Source: Nitrosomonas sp.
Lineage (GTDB): Bacteria > Pseudomonadota > Gammaproteobacteria > Burkholderiales > Nitrosomonadaceae
Reading direction: 5' to 3'
Assembly (NCBI GenBank): GCA_019745325.1
Contig: JAIETK010000003.1
Coordinates: 111,485-175,484 of the forward strand
Length of the DNA stretch: 64,000 nucleotides
The stretch's first letter is position 1. Every line of letters begins with the position of its first letter. Shown here in pieces: positions 49,001 through 58,258 of this stretch. The notes beneath the pieces are model-generated. The model was not told the origin of the DNA and did not search any database. It saw nothing but the letters and a program-made list of their open reading frames with translations. Position numbers and translations under genes: made by a program.

Positions 49001-50634
49001 AAACGCAGATGCAAACGCATCTTGCGCAACAGCAGGACAGCGAGCCTTCTTCGTTTGATCCGCTCGAATTCGATCGTTTCACCCGTTTCCAGGAATTGAC
49101 GCGGATGATGGCTGAAAGCGTCGACGACATTATTACCGCGCAAAAAAGCTTGCGGGCCAACCATACCATCGCCGAAGAAGCGGTCGCGCAACAAGCGGCG
49201 GTCAATCGTCAGTTACAGCAATCGCTGTTGCAAATCCGCACGATCCCGTTCAGTAATTACGCCGAACGGTACTATCGGATCGCCCGGCAAGTCGCGGACG
49301 ACATGGATAAGAAAGCGCAATTGGATATCCAAGGCCTGGATGTGGAGATTGACCGCAATATCCTGGAGAAAATCAACCCGCCGCTGGAACACATGCTGCG
49401 CAACGCCATCGCGCACGGTATCGAAACCCCGGCGGAGCGGATACAAGCCGGGAAACCGGAAGCCGGACAGGTGTCGATTCAACTGCATCAGGAAAGCAAC
49501 GAAGTCGTCATCACCGTCAGCGATGATGGCCGCGGCCTTGATTTACCGCGTATCCGCGCCGAAGCGCAACGGCTTGGGCTCATTCAACCCGATGAAGCTC
49601 TCGATGAAGACAAAATCATCTCGCTGATTTTCAAACAGGGACTTTCAACCACCGATACCGTCAGCGATATTGCCGGCCGCGGCATAGGCCTGGACGTTGT
49701 CAAAAATGAAATTTCGCTGCTCGGTGGACGGATCAGCGTCAATTCCTCTCCCGGTCAAGGAACAACTTTCACCATCCACTTACCGCTGTCGTTGTCAGTC
49801 ACGCAAACCTTTATGGTAAGAACCGGTAAACAAAACTATGCCATTCCGGCTTTCATCGTCGAGCATTATCGCGAATTCGATCCGGAAACTTTGAACAGAC
49901 TCTATCAGAGTCATTCGATCGAATTCAATGGCAAGAAATACCGCTTCGCGCACCTGGCGCATCTGCTGGGCGAATCCAGCGCCAGTCCTGTCGTCAGTCA
50001 ATCCGGTCCGGTATTGTTCCTGCATAGCGGCACGCAACACCTGGCGATCCAAGTCGATGAACTCGCCGGCGATTGCGAAATTGTCGCCAAGAGGATCGGC
50101 GATCAGCTTGCGCAAGCGCCGGGCGTCGAAGGCGCCACCATTACCGCCGACGGTGAAGTCATTTTGGTGCTGAACCCGGTGAAGCTGATGCAACGAAACG
50201 ATGTGCAGCAAGTTTTCAGCACACCCATTTCGGAATTCTCAGCCGTTGCGCATAAAAATCCGGTCAAAATTCCCACGGTGCTGGTTGTAGACGACTCCCT
50301 GACAGTCCGGAAAGTAACCTGCCGTTTGCTGGAACGCGAAGGCTGCGATGTCTTGATCGCCAAGAATGGCGCAGAAGCTATCAGCATCCTGAAAGAAGGC
50401 ATCCCGGATGTCATGCTGATCGACCTGGAAATGCCTAAAATGAACGGCTTTGAGCTTATCAAGAATATCCGGAATAATCCCCAAACAGCCGCCATTCCGG
50501 TCATCATCATTTCGTCGCGCACTGCGGAAAAGCATCAAAAAATCGCTAAAGATTTAGGGGTTAACGTCTTCCTCGGCAAGCCTTACAAGGAAGAGGAATT
50601 GCTCGGCCACTTAGCGGACTTTGTCGCACGATGA
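46069..50634 (+). CDS. chpA: Hybrid chemotaxis kinase ChpA of the type IV pilus system
   Basis: A 1521-residue multidomain kinase. N-terminal helical, His-less Hpt-like repeats (about 1-600) are followed by two Hpt domains with His645 (RRGFHTLKGSGRM) and His826 (RLLHTLKGSTRM). A dimerisation/linker helix precedes the HATPase: MLRNAIAHGIETPAER (Asn1112, His1116), SDDGRGLDLP, IAGRGIGLDVVKNE. A CheW domain (about 1245-1380) and a C-terminal receiver with Asp1452 and Lys1504 (LVVDDSL, LGKPY) follow. It phosphorylates pilus response regulators. Two Hpt with His is fewer than in Pseudomonas ChpA. It lies just after pilJ. Confidence 0.92.
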   Translation: MSAQPKMNIASIIGIKDGIYQVFALMDQNLDVYSKHPENDKFIKDCRNYIHQLDGLLEMLNLTSTAVVTEKMEQLVDALIFKKIEPSPAIFDALKQATKALLFYLNELIDGAEENALRLFPVYRELMQVYGYQNAPESDLFFPRLTGNPALKPEAAQLDATAARTLAKKLAADFQAGLLKWLRGPSNQNGLQQMAAAVSAIEEFPGTAEQRSFWWVAGGFLESLMPLEASRIDLPVRRLCGKIEQTIRHLAADTVSDTPVLLRELLYFISQSESAGQRASDIKQCYTWPGQNGDSARTFEEAETLNPILERLRSTLMQTNDIWREFCAGQESSLPPLLEYIDWLGHQAKQINCAPLVKLIDAIGNTIAYLHAQPQDMNEELAMEMATALLLIESIIDDFDKLSPDLPRQVDVLTSRLIGITAGDIGIHELPASPTFNTIASKTQETDIQTQVAQEILANLNQIESILDKFFFEPSKRSELSLLPEFFKQISGALVMLNLERANTLLNHCQSLVNKLLSPQYQIIEAEQILLVDGLSSLSFFIEASKSGQPDSDQIIEEALALFRIKPVLTGSMPPAKTMADAPVNTAETQPATVQPQETRRDPELLEIFLEEAEEVLAEIADALQQCRVDATDADTLRNLRRGFHTLKGSGRMVQLEAMSDAAWKVEQVLNDWLHAKKPASQRFIDFIGHAHQAYSGWCRDLRQQSTAEVDAGALLLEAQALLTELTTPQPSRTETQTPISRAAAAQTYVSDAIEAHPETAQASASPVPASVETPPPVIDSLNPELLQTFLEETHELIPQIGGKLRAWRMLPQDEDIHRAMLRLLHTLKGSTRMAGALHLGELLHAMESHVESAFRERDIADAALDQLENEFDAICDLIEQLQSRDTNAMAAAQQLAPVVISESVQPPAGKTEALHAKTIVRINSGLIDRLVNDSGEASILRSKIEAQLNSFKQSLQDLAESTHRLHDQLREVEIQAETQMQTHLAQQQDSEPSSFDPLEFDRFTRFQELTRMMAESVDDIITAQKSLRANHTIAEEAVAQQAAVNRQLQQSLLQIRTIPFSNYAERYYRIARQVADDMDKKAQLDIQGLDVEIDRNILEKINPPLEHMLRNAIAHGIETPAERIQAGKPEAGQVSIQLHQESNEVVITVSDDGRGLDLPRIRAEAQRLGLIQPDEALDEDKIISLIFKQGLSTTDTVSDIAGRGIGLDVVKNEISLLGGRISVNSSPGQGTTFTIHLPLSLSVTQTFMVRTGKQNYAIPAFIVEHYREFDPETLNRLYQSHSIEFNGKKYRFAHLAHLLGESSASPVVSQSGPVLFLHSGTQHLAIQVDELAGDCEIVAKRIGDQLAQAPGVEGATITADGEVILVLNPVKLMQRNDVQQVFSTPISEFSAVAHKNPVKIPTVLVVDDSLTVRKVTCRLLEREGCDVLIAKNGAEAISILKEGIPDVMLIDLEMPKMNGFELIKNIRNNPQTAAIPVIIISSRTAEKHQKIAKDLGVNVFLGKPYKEEELLGHLADFVAR

Positions 50635-50868: not shown

Positions 50869-51375
50869 ATGAAAAAACATTTTTTATCAATCGCATTAGC
50901 CGCGTCGTTAGGTCTATCAGGTGTGCAAACAGTACTGGCAGAACCGGTTGCTGTCGATGGCAATAGCATTTTTATTATCGACAACAGTGTCGATGGTTCT
51001 CAAATAGTCGTCAGGAATCTCAACAATGGCCAGCTAAATACCTGTTTAGCCAATGCCGGCCAAAATCTGCTCGAATTGGGTGTCAATACTATCGCAACCG
51101 ATATCCTGATCAAAAATGGCACTGCGGTTGTGACGACTTATAATGATGCCAGCTTGGTCACTGATGTTAAATTAGTCGATGTCACGAGCTGCCCGATCGT
51201 CAGCACCGTTGATCTCAGCGCATGCTACGCCACGGTTGAAGATGACCGGTTAATGATCCCTTGTCTCCGATACGGCGCCAATCTGATCTCCGTTATCCTG
51301 AAACAACGCGGCAATTCGATGAATTTCGAATTTGATTCTTATAAACCCGGCAAAGGCCGCAGACACGACGATTAA
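50869..51375 (+). CDS. Secreted protein of unknown function
   Basis: A 168-residue protein with a Sec signal (HFLSIALAASLGLSGVQTVLA, cut near residue 24) and a mature beta-rich body containing several Cys (NTCLANAG, TSCPIVS, SACYATVE, IPCLRYGA) that can pair. The end is basic and disordered (KPGKGRRHDD). It has no PEP-CTERM tail and no domain I recognise. It is well formed: a terminator follows at once. It lies between chpA and the repeat/HAF region and has no visible partner. Confidence 0.7.
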   Translation: MKKHFLSIALAASLGLSGVQTVLAEPVAVDGNSIFIIDNSVDGSQIVVRNLNNGQLNTCLANAGQNLLELGVNTIATDILIKNGTAVVTTYNDASLVTDVKLVDVTSCPIVSTVDLSACYATVEDDRLMIPCLRYGANLISVILKQRGNSMNFEFDSYKPGKGRRHDD

Positions 51376-51536: not shown

Positions 51537-51790
51537 CTTGACAAATAAAATAATCCACAATGTCAGAGCATGATAAATGTCCTTTTTGAGCTCTCATGCA
51601 AAAACCGGAAATATTTCTTAAGCAACTGATATTTAGCACATAATTATGATGTTAAATAATTAATCAACCTAAGAAAAACCCTTACAATTCCGCTGAGTTA
51701 TCGATCAAATAAAAAGCTTATTCACAATGTTATCCACAGAATTTGTGGATAATGAAAAAAATCTTATGTGAAATAATGTGATACCCGGAT
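51537..51790. repeat. AT-rich repeat A, copy 1 (leftmost)
   Basis: First of three diverged copies of a roughly 250-base AT-rich segment, opening with a TGACAAATAAAATAATCCACA block and holding TAATCAACCTAAGAAAAACC, then a DnaA-box trio. The matching copies begin at 53429 and 55524. This copy is the most diverged and lacks the 59-base palindrome-bearing block found in the other two. Confidence 0.75.
51718..51752. promoter_or_regulatory. Three DnaA boxes, copy 1
   Basis: TTATTCACA at 51718-51726, TTATCCACA at 51730-51738 and, in inverted orientation, TTATCCACA (read as TGTGGATAA) at 51744-51752. All three fit the DnaA consensus TTATNCACA; two are the strongest form. Exactly the same spacing is found in copies 2 and 3. 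Confidence 0.7.
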
Positions 51791-51939
51791 TCACAACGAG
51801 AATTATTGCGCGAGAGAAAATCGTATTTCAATGTGTAAGCCTTTATCGATAATGCTTACGATTTTTTCGTTTGATCTCAGTAATACTGCATCAAAAGTTC
51901 CTGCCATCATTCAATAATCTGATGTTTATATCAAATAAG

Positions 51940-52156
51940 AATCCTCTCGTTACAGTATTTTCTTAAAGTAAAGTTCAAAAAATACAAGAAAAACAAGAGC
52001 ATCAAATAAGAAAATTCTTATAGACTGGGCAGTAATTTTACCTATACTTAATATGTTACTTGCTAATTTGTTTGAATCACGATACCGGTCAACTTGAAAC
52101 TCTACAGGCCAATCGAAATGGCCATGCAAACTGAATCCTTATCAGGGGAGAAAATA
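51940..52156. repeat. Leader of HAF-repeat gene 1 (repeat B, copy 1)
   Basis: Matches the leader of the second HAF gene (53984-54207) almost base for base: GTTACAGTATTTTCTTAAAG..., ending in GGGGAGAAAATAATG. The shared part covers the region that should hold the promoter and translation start. Confidence 0.7.
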
Positions 52157-53332
52157 ATGAATCAAAATTTTTCAAAATTTAAGCAACGCATCGCTGGTTT
52201 TACTTTATTAACAACAGTCTTGATATCAACCAATACATACGCTGAGTGGTCATTGTCTTTCCTGGGTACTTTAGAAGGAACAGACTCATTCGCTGTAGAT
52301 ATCAACAATTTGGGACAAGTAGTAGGCAGTTATTCCAAATCCGGTATTCCAGGAAGCCGCGCTTTCATTACCGGTCCTAATGGAATTGGGATGACTGCGC
52401 TTGGAACGCTGGATGGAGGCCATACCTTTGCTACCGGCATTAATGATTCAGGTCAGGTCACAGGCTCGTCAAGCCTCAGTAACAGTTTTGATCTGATACA
52501 TTCATTCATTACGGGTCCCAATGGTGCCGGAATGACTGATTTAGGTGTTCTCCATGAGATTACTGGTGAATACCAGCATGTGAATAATGCCTTGGACATT
52601 AATGAATCTGGCCAAGTGGTTGGTTATGAATATCATAGAGATCCTCATAGTGAAAGTCGGCCAGAACTTCAAGCTTTCATGACAGGACCCAATGGCGTTG
52701 GAATAACCGGAATGAATGTTGGTGAAGCCAAAGCAATTAACGATTCCGGACAGATAGTGGGTAGCACCACCGCATCCGGCTCTTTAGGAAGTCGTGCCTT
52801 CATCACCGGCCCCGATGGGATTGGATTAACCATCATAGAAGAAGGTCTACACGGAAATAGTAGCTGGGCCAGCGCCATCAACAATTCCGGGCAGGTAGTG
52901 ATCAATTCTTACTTACCTGGAGATATGCGCGCCTACGTTACCGGTCCCAATGGGGTAGGCATTACCGCCCTTGGAACCCTGGGCGGAAAAACTTCTAACG
53001 CTTTAGATATTAACGAATCCGGCCAAATCATTGGAGTATCCCAAATAGCCGATGGCCGCTATCACGCTTTTTTATACAGCGATGGAGAAATGCTTGATTT
53101 GTCGCTGCTCCCGGCATTCATTAACGCAGGATTCATTCACATGATAAATGTAACGGCCATTAACGATCACGGTCAAATCGTTGGGTGGGGATATCCGGAT
53201 GGCGGTAGCGCACAGGCTTTCTTGCTATCACCGTTTCCTGTTCCGGAACCTCAAACCTACGCGATGTTGCTGGCGGGTCTAGGCATTCTTGGTTTCATGG
53301 CTCCACGGCGCAAGAAACTTAATCTAAGTTGA
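52157..53332 (+). CDS. HAF-repeat PEP-CTERM protein 1
   Basis: A 391-residue exported protein. Signal peptide residues 1-29 (TLLTTVLISTNTYAEWS) are followed by about six HAF-type repeats of roughly 50 residues, each with a pattern like SFAVDINNLGQVVGS and ITGPNGIGMTALGTLDGG, known from extracellular HAF-family proteins with beta-propeller-like repeats. The end VPEPQTYAMLLAGLGILGFM and PRRKKLNLS is the PEP-CTERM tail. GGGGAG precedes the ATG at 52157. It is a paralogue of the next gene with shared leader and tail. Confidence 0.88.
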   Translation: MNQNFSKFKQRIAGFTLLTTVLISTNTYAEWSLSFLGTLEGTDSFAVDINNLGQVVGSYSKSGIPGSRAFITGPNGIGMTALGTLDGGHTFATGINDSGQVTGSSSLSNSFDLIHSFITGPNGAGMTDLGVLHEITGEYQHVNNALDINESGQVVGYEYHRDPHSESRPELQAFMTGPNGVGITGMNVGEAKAINDSGQIVGSTTASGSLGSRAFITGPDGIGLTIIEEGLHGNSSWASAINNSGQVVINSYLPGDMRAYVTGPNGVGITALGTLGGKTSNALDINESGQIIGVSQIADGRYHAFLYSDGEMLDLSLLPAFINAGFIHMINVTAINDHGQIVGWGYPDGGSAQAFLLSPFPVPEPQTYAMLLAGLGILGFMAPRRKKLNLS

Positions 53333-53347
53333 ATTTGAATTTTTAAG

Positions 53348-53374
53348 AACCCGTCATGGTTACGGTTTTTTTTT
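53348..53374 (+). terminator. Terminator-like hairpin after HAF gene 1
   Basis: AACCCGT at 53348-53354 pairs with ACGGTT just downstream, one base short of the perfect stem of the paralogous site at 55444, followed by a T run. Likely a weaker terminator. Confidence 0.5.
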
Positions 53375-53428
53375 ATTTCCTTCAAATTTCTTGATTCTTT
53401 CTTTGTTCCATCGCTGTTTTAATTTTTC

Positions 53429-53690
53429 CTTGACATTTGAAATAATCCACAGTTTTGAAAAATGACAAATATCCTTTTAAATATTTAAACCTCGACTGAG
53501 ATATACGAAATAACTATATGATAAATATCACATAACCAACATGTTAAATATTTAATCACCCCAAGAAAAACCCTTACAATTCCGGGAAGTTACCGATCAA
53601 ATAAAAGGTTTATTCACAATGTTATCCACAGATTTTGTGGATAATGAGAAAATCTTTCAAGAAAATAAGGTGATACTTGAAATTTTACTG
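53429..53690. repeat. AT-rich repeat A, copy 2
   Basis: Second copy of the repeat, nearly the same as copy 3 over about 260 bases (for example TTTTAAATATTTAAACCTCGACTGAG versus TTTTAAATACTTAAATCTCGACTGAG, quoted in part). It carries the second DnaA-box trio. Confidence 0.8.
53610..53644. promoter_or_regulatory. Three DnaA boxes, copy 2
   Basis: TTATTCACA at 53610-53618, TTATCCACA at 53622-53630 and inverted TTATCCACA at 53636-53644. The spacing equals copies 1 and 3. Confidence 0.7.
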
Positions 53691-53773
53691 ATGGATCAAA
53701 ATTCACCTGCTCCAAAGACTTTATTCAAACGAAATAGACTCAATCATGATTGATTTTGCGAGGATTTACTGCT

Positions 53774-53832
53774 GATCTTGCTTGTTTAATTGACTACCGT
53801 GACAATCCGCACCGGTGCGATGCAAGATGTTC
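53774..53832. repeat. Repeat C, copy with 12-bp palindrome
   Basis: Matches 55871-55929 at 56 of 59 bases. At its centre is the perfect palindrome CGCACCGGTGCG (53808-53819). About 12 bases further on is a tRNA-Leu 3'-end-like remnant. Confidence 0.7.
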
Positions 53833-53843
53833 TTGAAATTATT

Positions 53844-53859
53844 GCGAGAGGGGGAACCG
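53844..53859. other. Remnant of a tRNA-Leu 3' end in the repeat
   Basis: GCGAGAGGGGGAACCG resembles CCGAGAGGGGGAATCG of the tRNA-Leu gene at 55949-55964 (14 of 16). It sits at the same point of the repeat relative to block C. The match is short, so chance is possible. Confidence 0.35.
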
Positions 53860-53983
53860 CATATAGTTATGCAGCCCTTTATCCATAAAAACTTTTATTT
53901 TATGAACTAGATAAGTACCGTCATAAATACCGTCAATTTATTTTACTAGTCAAGATTTTTACTCAATCTTCACTTGTCTTTCT

Positions 53984-54207
53984 AATAGAAATCCTTTCGT
54001 TACAGTATTTTCTTAAAGCAAAGTTCAAAAAATATAAGAAAAACAAGATTATGAAATAATAAAATTCTTATAGACATGGAAGTGATTTTACTTATACTTA
54101 ATATGTCACTTGTTAATTTGTTTAAGTTGCGATACCGGTCAACTTGAAAACTCCACAAACCAATCAAAATGACCGTGCAAATTGAATCCTCATCACGGGA
54201 GAAAATA
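53984..54207. repeat. Leader of HAF-repeat gene 2 (repeat B, copy 2)
   Basis: Near copy of 51940-52156. Contains the same GTTACAGTATTTTCTTAAAG start and the same ribosome region GGGAGAAAATAATG. Confidence 0.7.
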
Positions 54208-55422
54208 ATGAATCAAAATTTTTCAAAGTTTAAGCAACGAATCGCTGGTTTTACTTTATTTACAACAATTTTGATATCAGCAAACGCTAGTGCTGAGTGG
54301 TCAATTGTAAATCTTGGAGCCTCATATCTTAGTGGCGCTGGAGATAGCGATGCTCTAGCTATTAACAATTCAGGGCAAGTAGCCGGTGTTTTCACGCCAA
54401 AATATTCTGAAAACCCAAAAGCTTTCCTCATTGATTTAGATGGTGAAGGATTTACCACCTTGGGAACTCTGAGTGACCCAGGAACAGCCTTCCCCACTGA
54501 CTTTGCCACCGAAATTAATGATTCCGGACAGGTGGTAGGATTTTCTCGCACTGTTGGTGGTCGCGACCATGCTTTCATTACCGGCCCTAATGGTGTAGGC
54601 ATAATCGACTTAGGGACATTAGGCGGGCTAGATAGCGCAGCCTACGGAGTTAACAATTCCGGGCAAGTGGTAGGAGAATCTTACATGCCAGGTAATACTA
54701 GTAGGCATGCGTTCATCACAGGCCCTAATAGTATAGGCATGACTGACTTGGGCACCTTGGGCGGAACATACAGTGGTGCCGGTGGTATCAATGATTCCGG
54801 ACAAGTAGCCGGAAATTCTTCCATTTCGGGCGATACTGCTACCCATGCTTTCATTACCGGCCCCAATGGCATAGGCATGACCGACTTGGGTACGTTAGGA
54901 GGAACACATAGTTTTGCTTCAGGTATCAACAATTTTGGTCAGGTAGTAGGAGCATCAACCACTGTGGATGGCAATCGCCATGCTTTTATTACTGGTTCCA
55001 ATGGTGAAGACATGACCGACTTAGGTACTATGGGTGCAGATTTCAGTTTCGCATTTGATATTAACAATTTGGGACAAGCTATCGGTATCGCTGGATTTGA
55101 TGGTTGTTCATATTGTGAGAATTCTTTTGTTTATAGTGACGGCGTAATGGTCAACCTTTCTAAGCTTGATGAAGTTATCAGTTCTGGATGGACTCACTTA
55201 CTTGCACGCGACATCAACGATCATGGCCAAATTGTTGGATATGGGATATTGCATGGCGTTACACAGGCGTTTTTACTTTCCGGTGCTGATGACAAAGATT
55301 TTTTCCGCAATTATGTCGAGACACCCATGATTCCAGAACCTCAAACCTATGCGATGTTGCTGGCGGGTCTAGGCTTACTTGGTTTCATGGCTCAACGGCG
55401 CAAGAAATTCAATCTAAGTTGA
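54208..55422 (+). CDS. HAF-repeat PEP-CTERM protein 2
   Basis: A 404-residue paralogue of HAF protein 1. Signal peptide (TLFTTILISANASAEWS), then about six HAF repeats of the type HAFITGPNGIGMTDLGTLGG and INDSGQVAGNSSIS, and the tail IPEPQTYAMLLAGLGLLGFM with QRRKKFNLS. The leader, signal and tail match HAF protein 1 closely, the repeats less so. GGGAG precedes the ATG at 54208. The expansion of this surface-protein gene looks recent and linked to the repeats around it. Confidence 0.88.
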   Translation: MNQNFSKFKQRIAGFTLFTTILISANASAEWSIVNLGASYLSGAGDSDALAINNSGQVAGVFTPKYSENPKAFLIDLDGEGFTTLGTLSDPGTAFPTDFATEINDSGQVVGFSRTVGGRDHAFITGPNGVGIIDLGTLGGLDSAAYGVNNSGQVVGESYMPGNTSRHAFITGPNSIGMTDLGTLGGTYSGAGGINDSGQVAGNSSISGDTATHAFITGPNGIGMTDLGTLGGTHSFASGINNFGQVVGASTTVDGNRHAFITGSNGEDMTDLGTMGADFSFAFDINNLGQAIGIAGFDGCSYCENSFVYSDGVMVNLSKLDEVISSGWTHLLARDINDHGQIVGYGILHGVTQAFLLSGADDKDFFRNYVETPMIPEPQTYAMLLAGLGLLGFMAQRRKKFNLS

Positions 55423-55443
55423 AATTGAACTTGAATTTTTAAG

Positions 55444-55469
55444 AACCCGTCATGGTTACGGGTTTTTTT
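55444..55469 (+). terminator. Rho-independent terminator after HAF gene 2
   Basis: AACCCGT at 55444-55450 pairs perfectly with ACGGGTT at 55458-55464, followed by a T run. It matches the imperfect hairpin after HAF gene 1. Confidence 0.75.
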
Positions 55470-55523
55470 ATTTCCTTCAAATTTCTTGATTCGTTCTTTG
55501 TGCCGTCGCTGTTTTAATTTTTC

Positions 55524-55790
55524 CTTGACATTTGAAACAATCCACAATTTTGAAAAATGACAAATATCCTTTTAAATACTTAAATCTCGACTGAGATACA
55601 CAAAATAACTATATGATAAATATCACATAACCAACATGTTAAATATTTAATCAACCTAAGAAAAACCCTTACAATTCCGGGAAGTTATCGATCAAACAAA
55701 AGGCTTATTCACAATGTTATCCACAGAATTTGTGGATAATGAGAAAATCTTTCAAGAAAATAAAGTGATATTTCGAATTTTATTAATGCA
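55524..55790. repeat. AT-rich repeat A, copy 3
   Basis: Third copy, close to copy 2. It lies between HAF gene 2 and tRNA-Leu and carries the third DnaA-box trio. Confidence 0.8.
55705..55739. promoter_or_regulatory. Three DnaA boxes, copy 3
   Basis: TTATTCACA at 55705-55713, TTATCCACA at 55717-55725 and inverted TTATCCACA at 55731-55739. Spacing is the same as in the two copies to the left. Confidence 0.7.
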
Positions 55791-55943: not shown

Positions 55944-56030
55944 TGGTGCCGAGAGGGGGAATCGAACCCCCATGATGTCACCATCGCGGGATTTTGAGTC
56001 CCGTGCGTCTACCAATTCCGCCATCTCGGC
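55944..56030 (-). tRNA. tRNA-Leu (anticodon CAA)
   Basis: The 87-base minus-strand gene has a class II fold. The acceptor GCCGAGA pairs with TCTCGGC, the anticodon stem CGGGA/TCCCG encloses loop CTCAAAA giving anticodon CAA, a long variable arm follows, the T loop is TTCGATT and CCA is encoded. It reads UUG codons. It borders the repeat region on one side and queA on the other. Confidence 0.95.

Positions 56031-56141: not shown

Positions 56142-58258
<2,117 letters not shown>

Follow-up and report, generated by a model that had tools for sequence, protein, structure and literature searches.

Why should a stretch of chromosome whose named genes are not replication genes carry a dense array of strong DnaA boxes? 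The question is raised by a 64,000-nucleotide stretch of Nitrosomonas sp. DNA (assembly GCA_019745325.1, contig JAIETK010000003.1, positions 111,485 to 175,484; hereafter the window), for which the original prediction, made from the letters themselves, described nine strong boxes in three identically spaced trios and proposed a DnaA-titration site, a reactivation site or the origin of a lost element. DnaA-reactivating sequences (DARS) are loci that convert ADP-DnaA back to ATP-DnaA. From comparison of sequences, each trio is probably the core of a DARS-type site, most like the integration host factor (IHF)-dependent DARS2 of Escherichia coli, with its accessory sites in a different order. The reactivation proposal is thereby well supported, since the trios have the geometry of DARS1 and DARS2, an IHF-like site stands at a fixed place beside them, and the boxes are conserved throughout the genus.

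Geometry and distribution of the box trios

The DnaA box TTATNCACA occurs 12 times in the window, compared with a chance expectation of 1.92, and none of 100 shuffled sequences reached that count. Nine of the 12 make up the three trios, in which box starts are 12 and 14 bp apart throughout, just as first described: two rightward boxes with a 3-bp gap are followed after 5 bp by a leftward box, boxes I and II forming a perfect 9-5-9 inverted repeat. Read on the forward strand, copy 1 spans 51718..51752 (box III 51718-51726 and box II 51730-51738, both +; box I 51744-51752, -), copy 2 spans 53610..53644 (III 53610-53618, II 53622-53630, I 53636-53644, again -) and copy 3 spans 55705..55739 (III 55705-55713, II 55717-55725, I 55731-55739, -). 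All 27 box bases are identical in each of the three pairwise comparisons, while ungapped identity over the 120 bp upstream is 86/120 for copies 1 and 2, 88/120 for copies 1 and 3 and 112/120 for copies 2 and 3; the impression that the arrangement had stayed fixed while copy 1 diverged around it therefore holds, the boxes of that copy being intact despite 28% divergence upstream. Copies 2 and 3 are 95% alike across 300 bp. The flanks are AT-rich, as had been noted (65-72% A+T in the 150 bp on each side of the trios, 51% in the window), and the named neighbors (ChpA-like kinase, PEP-CTERM, tRNA-Leu, queA, tgt, yajC, secD and secF) include none of a replication kind. A genome-wide cluster search, suggested at the outset, found the exact trio at the three window places alone in the source genome (3.02 Mb, 33 contigs), where TTATNCACA occurs 87 times (40 forward, 47 reverse) against 44 for the reversed control pattern; contig C15 holds one further trio, which has 2 mismatches.

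In the E. coli reference sequence (NC_000913.3) we take the bioD-uvrB, rppH-mutH and glyVXY stretches to be DARS1, DARS2 and datA. Box starts fall at 813107, 813121 and 813133 in DARS1 and at 2969135, 2969149 and 2969161 in DARS2, in both cases with the orientation and 12/14 spacing of the window trios. Over the 24 fixed bases of the trio, DARS1 differs by 2 mismatches and DARS2 by 3, while the best match is 6 in the datA region and 9 in the oriC region. As background, the best match among 240 5-kb pieces of Nitrosomonas DNA had 8-10 mismatches in 222 and at most 6 in five; of these five, three matched exactly and another had 3 mismatches, in line with the presence of real sites there. The map positions of DARS1 (0.81 Mb) and DARS2 (2.97 Mb) are confirmed by a review according to which box spacing is equal in the two loci, box I is opposed to boxes II and III, and the head-to-head box pair is a prominent DARS feature (PMC5742627); DnaA molecules on boxes I and II are described as being in head-to-head contact (PMC8682772). 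Three boxes, an opposed box I and the DARS1/DARS2 spacing are all present in each window trio.

The same arrangement is widespread. At up to 2 mismatches the trio was detected in 238 of 369 genomes of the class, representing 183 of 271 genera; among the 314 good-quality genomes, 205 carry it. None of the 369 has the reversed control pattern. When exact boxes were required in these genomes and each spacer was left free between 0 and 15 bp (256 combinations), 26 places in 22 genomes were recovered, and 24 of the 26 have spacers of 3 and 5 bp, the window supplying three of them. The spacing of the trio is under selection rather than a product of chance, as would be expected of a DARS. In a sample of the phylum the trio was present in 64 of 150 genomes (17/37 from the same class, 47/113 from outside it). 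One family of another class (f216) stands out, with the trio at up to 2 mismatches in 30 of 35 genomes, seven copies in one of them, and 30 of the 47 carriers outside the class. A scan of named species returned at least 118 stretches with the trio; the matches listed include Nitrosomonas oligotropha Nm75, Nitrosomonas sp. Nm84, Gallionellaceae, Methylomonas, Marinicella and Neisseriaceae, as well as a Magnetococcales metagenome-assembled genome (MAG) and, under the names of other phyla, a few further MAGs.

Within the genus, where it had been advised that the repeat be sought, a core at up to 3 mismatches is present in 60 of 61 genomes, with at least two cores in 53, at least three in 41, and a range of 0-18 per genome (median 3). 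The genome with no core at this threshold (G014) is 83% complete, and the reversed control was found in none of the 61. A profile (R1) built from these elements, and so not independent of them, has matches in at least 60 of the 61. One genome (G018) has 18 trio matches at this threshold, possibly carried on a repeat or insertion sequence (IS) element. Trios lie outside open reading frames (ORFs) of at least 100 aa in 101 of 105 cases beyond Nitrosomonas and in 79 of 81 within it, compared with 28 of 109 random places in the non-Nitrosomonas loci. A DnaA-like protein motif was not found in 109 class and named loci. One trio in G029 (locus L210) is without an IHF-like site; ~1.6 kb away is a sequence that weakly matches the Hda model, and our guess is that this is an IS gene. 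Two signs had been named in advance as speaking against a selected DnaA site, and they came out differently: the element is indeed dispersed, but its boxes, far from being less conserved than the rest, are the most conserved part of sequences that were themselves found by their boxes.

Accessory sites and recurring loci

Upstream of each window core, at distances counted from box III, stand candidate sites for IHF (pattern YAANNNNTTGATW, up to 1 mismatch) and Fis (consensus GNNYANNNNNTRNNC from PMC8682772, up to 1 mismatch), and farther out a DnaA-like box. In copy 1 these are the IHF-like site TAAGCAACTGATA at 51619..51631 (-), a Fis-like site at 51651..51665 (no strand assigned, as for the other Fis-like sites) and the distal box TAATCCACA at 51551..51559 (+); in copy 2, the IHF-like site TAACTATATGATA at 53511..53523 (-), a Fis-like site at 53543..53557 and the distal box TAATCCACA at 53443..53451 (+); and in copy 3, the IHF-like site TAACTATATGATA at 55606..55618 (-) and a Fis-like site at 55638..55652. 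Both distal boxes have 1 mismatch, and the equivalent place in copy 3 reads CAATCCACA, with 2.

The positions of these sites recur. We collected 69 Nitrosomonas elements, removed 2 out-of-register overlaps, and reduced the remaining 67 to 50 at 85% identity; a further 102 elements of other lineages, taken from 99 loci of the class and named-species scans and excluding trios too close to a locus end, were not dereplicated. All elements were chosen by their boxes, and it is the IHF, Fis and distal-box counts that are independent of this choice; the shuffles preserve base composition only, and the regions for counting IHF-like and Fis-like sites were fixed after viewing the Nitrosomonas data and, for Fis, the other lineages as well. 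An IHF-like site at -101..-94 is present in 40 of the 50 Nitrosomonas elements (57/67 before dereplication; shuffle mean 0.57, maximum 3), up to 11 of which have a second at -75/-76, and one at -105..-80 is present in 69 of the 102 others (shuffle mean 3.1, maximum 7), where matches peak sharply (35 at -98, 15 at -99, 13 at -97). By sequence match, then, the box III side carries an IHF-like site whose distance is fixed, as in the DARS2 subtype. Fis-like sites at -68..-64 were counted in 44/50 Nitrosomonas elements (shuffle 3.4) and 78/102 others (7.1), and exact matches there in 11/50 (0.2) and 41/102 (0.3). The distal box, in + orientation at -175..-150, is found in 36/50 Nitrosomonas elements (shuffle means 2.2 and 2.5 in two runs) and 22/102 others (3.5).

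Gene context recurs as well, as it does for the DARS2 subtype. In a survey of 59 chosen loci, mostly of 3 kb, from 38 Nitrosomonas genomes, cores gather at two sites, one running from queA/tRNA-Leu to an ABC-F gene and the other from xseA to exbB. In 18 of the 38 genomes a core is found close to queA or to the ABC-F gene (70.7-100% identical to the query), including one (G076) in which cores are only 4.9 and 6.6 kb from queA; 16 have a core at xseA/exbB (G084 by exbB only), five have both, and nine have neither within the surveyed loci. Among the matches listed at up to 4 mismatches, cores between queA and ABC-F number one in G035 and two in G068; matches listed for G020 and G022 include three in this interval with other genes interspersed. 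G028 has three beyond the ABC-F gene, and in G076 cores flank the queA-secF block on both sides. Integrase-like ORFs, recognized by eye, lie near tRNA-Leu/queA in G020 and G022 (L213, L231), and the interval, at its tRNA end, resembles a hot spot for integration. That the element itself is mobile was provisionally set aside, as a common model covers ~167 positions and gene contexts recur between species.

The window array lies at the queA/tRNA-Leu site, apparently multiplied there into three copies that enclose two PEP-CTERM genes. The order runs from a ChpA-like hybrid kinase (ending at 50634) through an ORF at 50869-51375, core 1, a PEP-CTERM gene (52157..53332, +), core 2, its paralog (54208..55422, +), core 3, tRNA-Leu (CAA; 55944..56030, -) and queA (56142..57176, +), the anchor of the locus in other Nitrosomonas, to tgt and ORFs read as yajC, secD and secF; ChpA, PEP-CTERM, QueA and Tgt were named by Pfam, YajC and SecDF by reading the ORFs. 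Both PEP-CTERM proteins have weak DUF3466 matches and carry repeats of about 46 residues. The two are ~50% identical, yet over 300 bp the spacers of copies 2 and 3 agree at 95%, a disparity that suggests gene conversion or fast protein divergence. The ORF at 50869-51375 (168 aa, signal-like start, no Pfam match) has homologs beside DARS-type cores in G020, G022, G034 and G068. In G034 a single core stands between queA with tRNA-Leu and homologs of this ORF and the ChpA-like gene, and its 3-kb locus yielded no homolog of the first PEP-CTERM protein; this looks like the state before expansion.

DnaA, Hda, IHF-alpha and a Fis homolog are all encoded. The source-genome DnaA and that of E. coli agree at 241 of the 452 positions aligned; Asp269, Arg281, Arg285, Leu290 and Arg334 are retained, as are the five DNA-contact residues checked, and Arg227 is replaced by His. 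Hda and IHF-alpha score above curated cut-offs in all five genomes searched, and a Fis homolog is present in all five, with 41% identity over 76 residues in the source genome. Of the DnaA residues, Asp269 and Leu290 act at DARS, and Arg281, Arg285 and Arg334 at datA or oriC (PMC5742627). Fis has nevertheless been called specific to E. coli relatives (PMC4245941).

Weighing the alternatives

By analogy with E. coli, ADP-DnaA would bind boxes I and II head to head with box III alongside, and IHF ~98 bp away, probably with the Fis homolog ~66 bp away, would bend the DNA toward the core; ADP would then be released, apo-DnaA would depart and take up ATP, and the pool of DnaA competent for initiation at oriC would rise. 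An ancestral single site by tRNA-Leu/queA may have multiplied along with the PEP-CTERM gene to give three tandem sites, and the extra copies may add activity. Alternatively, one ancestral DARS might be functional and its tripling passive, a by-product of a tandem duplication that took in the PEP-CTERM gene and its flanks, the copy number having no function. The single core between the same flanking genes in G034, where no homolog of the first PEP-CTERM protein was found in the 3-kb locus, would suit this, as would repeat blocks that run past the core into gene ends and spacer; but multiple cores accompany queA or ABC-F with other intervening genes in G020, G022, G028 and G068, and copy 1 has kept its boxes while its flanks diverged. 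Passive tripling is a tentative and rather doubtful explanation. A sink for DnaA, in which boxes and IHF keep the protein from oriC by datA-like titration or ATP hydrolysis and so lower initiation, we regard as unlikely. Nine strong boxes plus IHF-like sites are what a sink might contain, and datA likewise stands beside tRNA genes (glyVXY). Chromosomal titration has been argued for (PMC12371093), and any such cluster may hold some DnaA; to that extent titration may take place, but the element does not fit datA, whose region matches the trio with 6 mismatches in 24 at best as opposed to 2 and 3 for DARS1 and DARS2. Moreover, the head-to-head pair is a mark of DARS (PMC5742627), and simple titration has no need of a spacing fixed across the class.

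A replication origin, whether a relocated oriC or what is left of a plasmid or integrated element, was considered because GC skew in the window changes weakly from negative to positive at ~52 kb and the element is AT-rich; the strong boxes and IHF-like site would also be at home there. Yet the skew, followed around the locus and around dnaA as had been recommended, gives no support for an origin at the array. Sampled skew switches sign at dnaA in G035, where the orthologous element is at 1.61 Mb (1.58 Mb along the chromosome) and samples from dnaA to beyond it are positive or about zero, and near dnaA in G068, where the element has negative skew to either side; in the draft source genome the switch on contig C1 is ~40-60 kb from dnaA. 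In G029 the element has positive skew to its left and right and the sampled switch was not placed. In the source genome, stretches of contig C4 away from the local change at ~52 kb also have near-zero skew. Nor do cores accompany dnaA: none lies within 100 kb of it in the 11 genomes (of 12) with both on one contig, and 1 of 30 dnaA loci (L040) has a trio, with 3 mismatches. The origin reading was dropped once sampled skew in G035, G068 and C1 pointed to dnaA or its vicinity, and with orthologous elements lying elsewhere the proposed origin of a lost element is extremely improbable. The dnaA region of G035 (L123, 9313-9544) holds eleven TTATCCACA boxes, of which eight form two series of four spaced at 11 bp, compared with two or three boxes in each of five other Nitrosomonas dnaA neighborhoods, and by its sequence the oriC of that lineage appears unusual and iteron-like. 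Finally, the element might bind another regulator of the neighboring genes and merely resemble paired DnaA boxes, as a perfect 9-5-9 inverted repeat that lies outside ORFs in nearly every Nitrosomonas element (79/81) could suggest; this is very improbable, because it leaves the third box, the varied neighbors and the exact DARS1/DARS2 spacing unexplained.

Several observations weigh against identifying the trios as cores of DARS-type sites. Neither the class nor the phylum carries the trio throughout, 131 of the 369 class genomes and 86 of the 150 phylum genomes being without it at up to 2 mismatches, and certain trios with 2-3 mismatches, L210 for one, are probably chance, coding or IS-linked matches rather than sites of this kind. 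The IHF pattern used is less strict in its first position than the published TAAnnnnTTGATW (PMC8682772), every IHF-like and Fis-like site in the window has one mismatch, and 10 of the 50 Nitrosomonas elements have no IHF-like site at the usual place. The likeness of copies 2 and 3 is such that a recent duplication, or gene conversion, could by itself account for boxes that are still intact, and a young age can account for boxes that are perfect. Distances of DARS from oriC are conserved in E. coli (PMC5010248); the chromosomal distance between core and dnaA varies between species, and a fixed dnaA distance, sought as a candidate property of the element, was not found. Lastly, the Fis-like site of the window (~-66) sits between the IHF-like site and the core, unlike DARS2, where the sole exact Fis match within -260..+40 is at -125, beyond the IHF pair, and presumably belongs to the Fis-binding sites FBS2-3; a Fis site beyond the IHF sites, as in E. 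coli, is not what the window has.

Composite sites and their E. coli counterparts

If the DARS-type reading is correct, it is tempting to speculate that a composite DARS (IHF at ~-98, Fis at ~-66, boxes III-II-I) was ancestral in Gammaproteobacteria sensu lato, including the former Betaproteobacteria and perhaps neighboring classes, that E. coli DARS2 is a rearranged descendant, and that multi-copy tandem arrays in Nitrosomonas set DnaA reactivation by DARS dosage; we hold this proposal to be evenly poised between right and wrong. Were it true, the DnaA recharge step would be old and general, on the basis of the 238 class genomes with a trio and the IHF-like (69/102) and Fis-like (78/102) sites of other lineages; the composite pattern could be used to find DARS in any genome, and ammonia oxidizers, with 0-18 core matches each, would amount to natural dosage experiments. 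The DARS2 core was described in 2014 as specific to E. coli-related gamma-proteobacteria (PMC4245941) and a 2017 review refers to E. coli-proximal beta- or gamma-proteobacteria (PMC5742627); in the papers examined, DARS function was studied in E. coli. A search of titles and abstract beginnings, with subscription literature mostly outside it, found none on DARS in Nitrosomonas, and one combining DnaA box and Nitrosomonas found only papers unrelated by title. DARS itself is known; what did not show in the partial texts searched, apart from the remark in PMC5742627, is its breadth and the layout seen here, with perfect boxes, cores in tandem and in many copies, and a Fis-like site placed between the IHF-like site and the core.

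Among the known E. coli systems, datA consists of DnaA boxes plus IHF (PMC5742627). The window element resembles it in having boxes with an IHF-like site and an adjoining tRNA gene, and differs in box geometry, the datA arrangement not being found. DARS1, between bioD and uvrB, shares the core, and its 5-bp spacer GGAAT recurs in 7 of 21 exact Nitrosomonas cores; no IHF-like match at up to 1 mismatch was found from 420 bp upstream to 200 bp downstream of its core. DARS2, between rppH and ygdT/mutH, is dependent on IHF and Fis and is the closer likeness: its core too is intergenic, with an additional DnaA box upstream, and its two IHF-like matches (-87 and -71), separated by 3 bp, the published distance for the IHF-binding sites IBS1-2, lie on the same side of the core as the IHF-like site of the window, which is ~11 bp (one helical turn) further out. 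The window boxes are perfect to the consensus whereas DARS2 has 3 mismatches in 24, and the window has three tandem cores, Nitrosomonas often having several per genome. Since the order of Fis and IHF sites differs from that in E. coli, the element would best be regarded as a DARS variant rather than as DARS2 proper.

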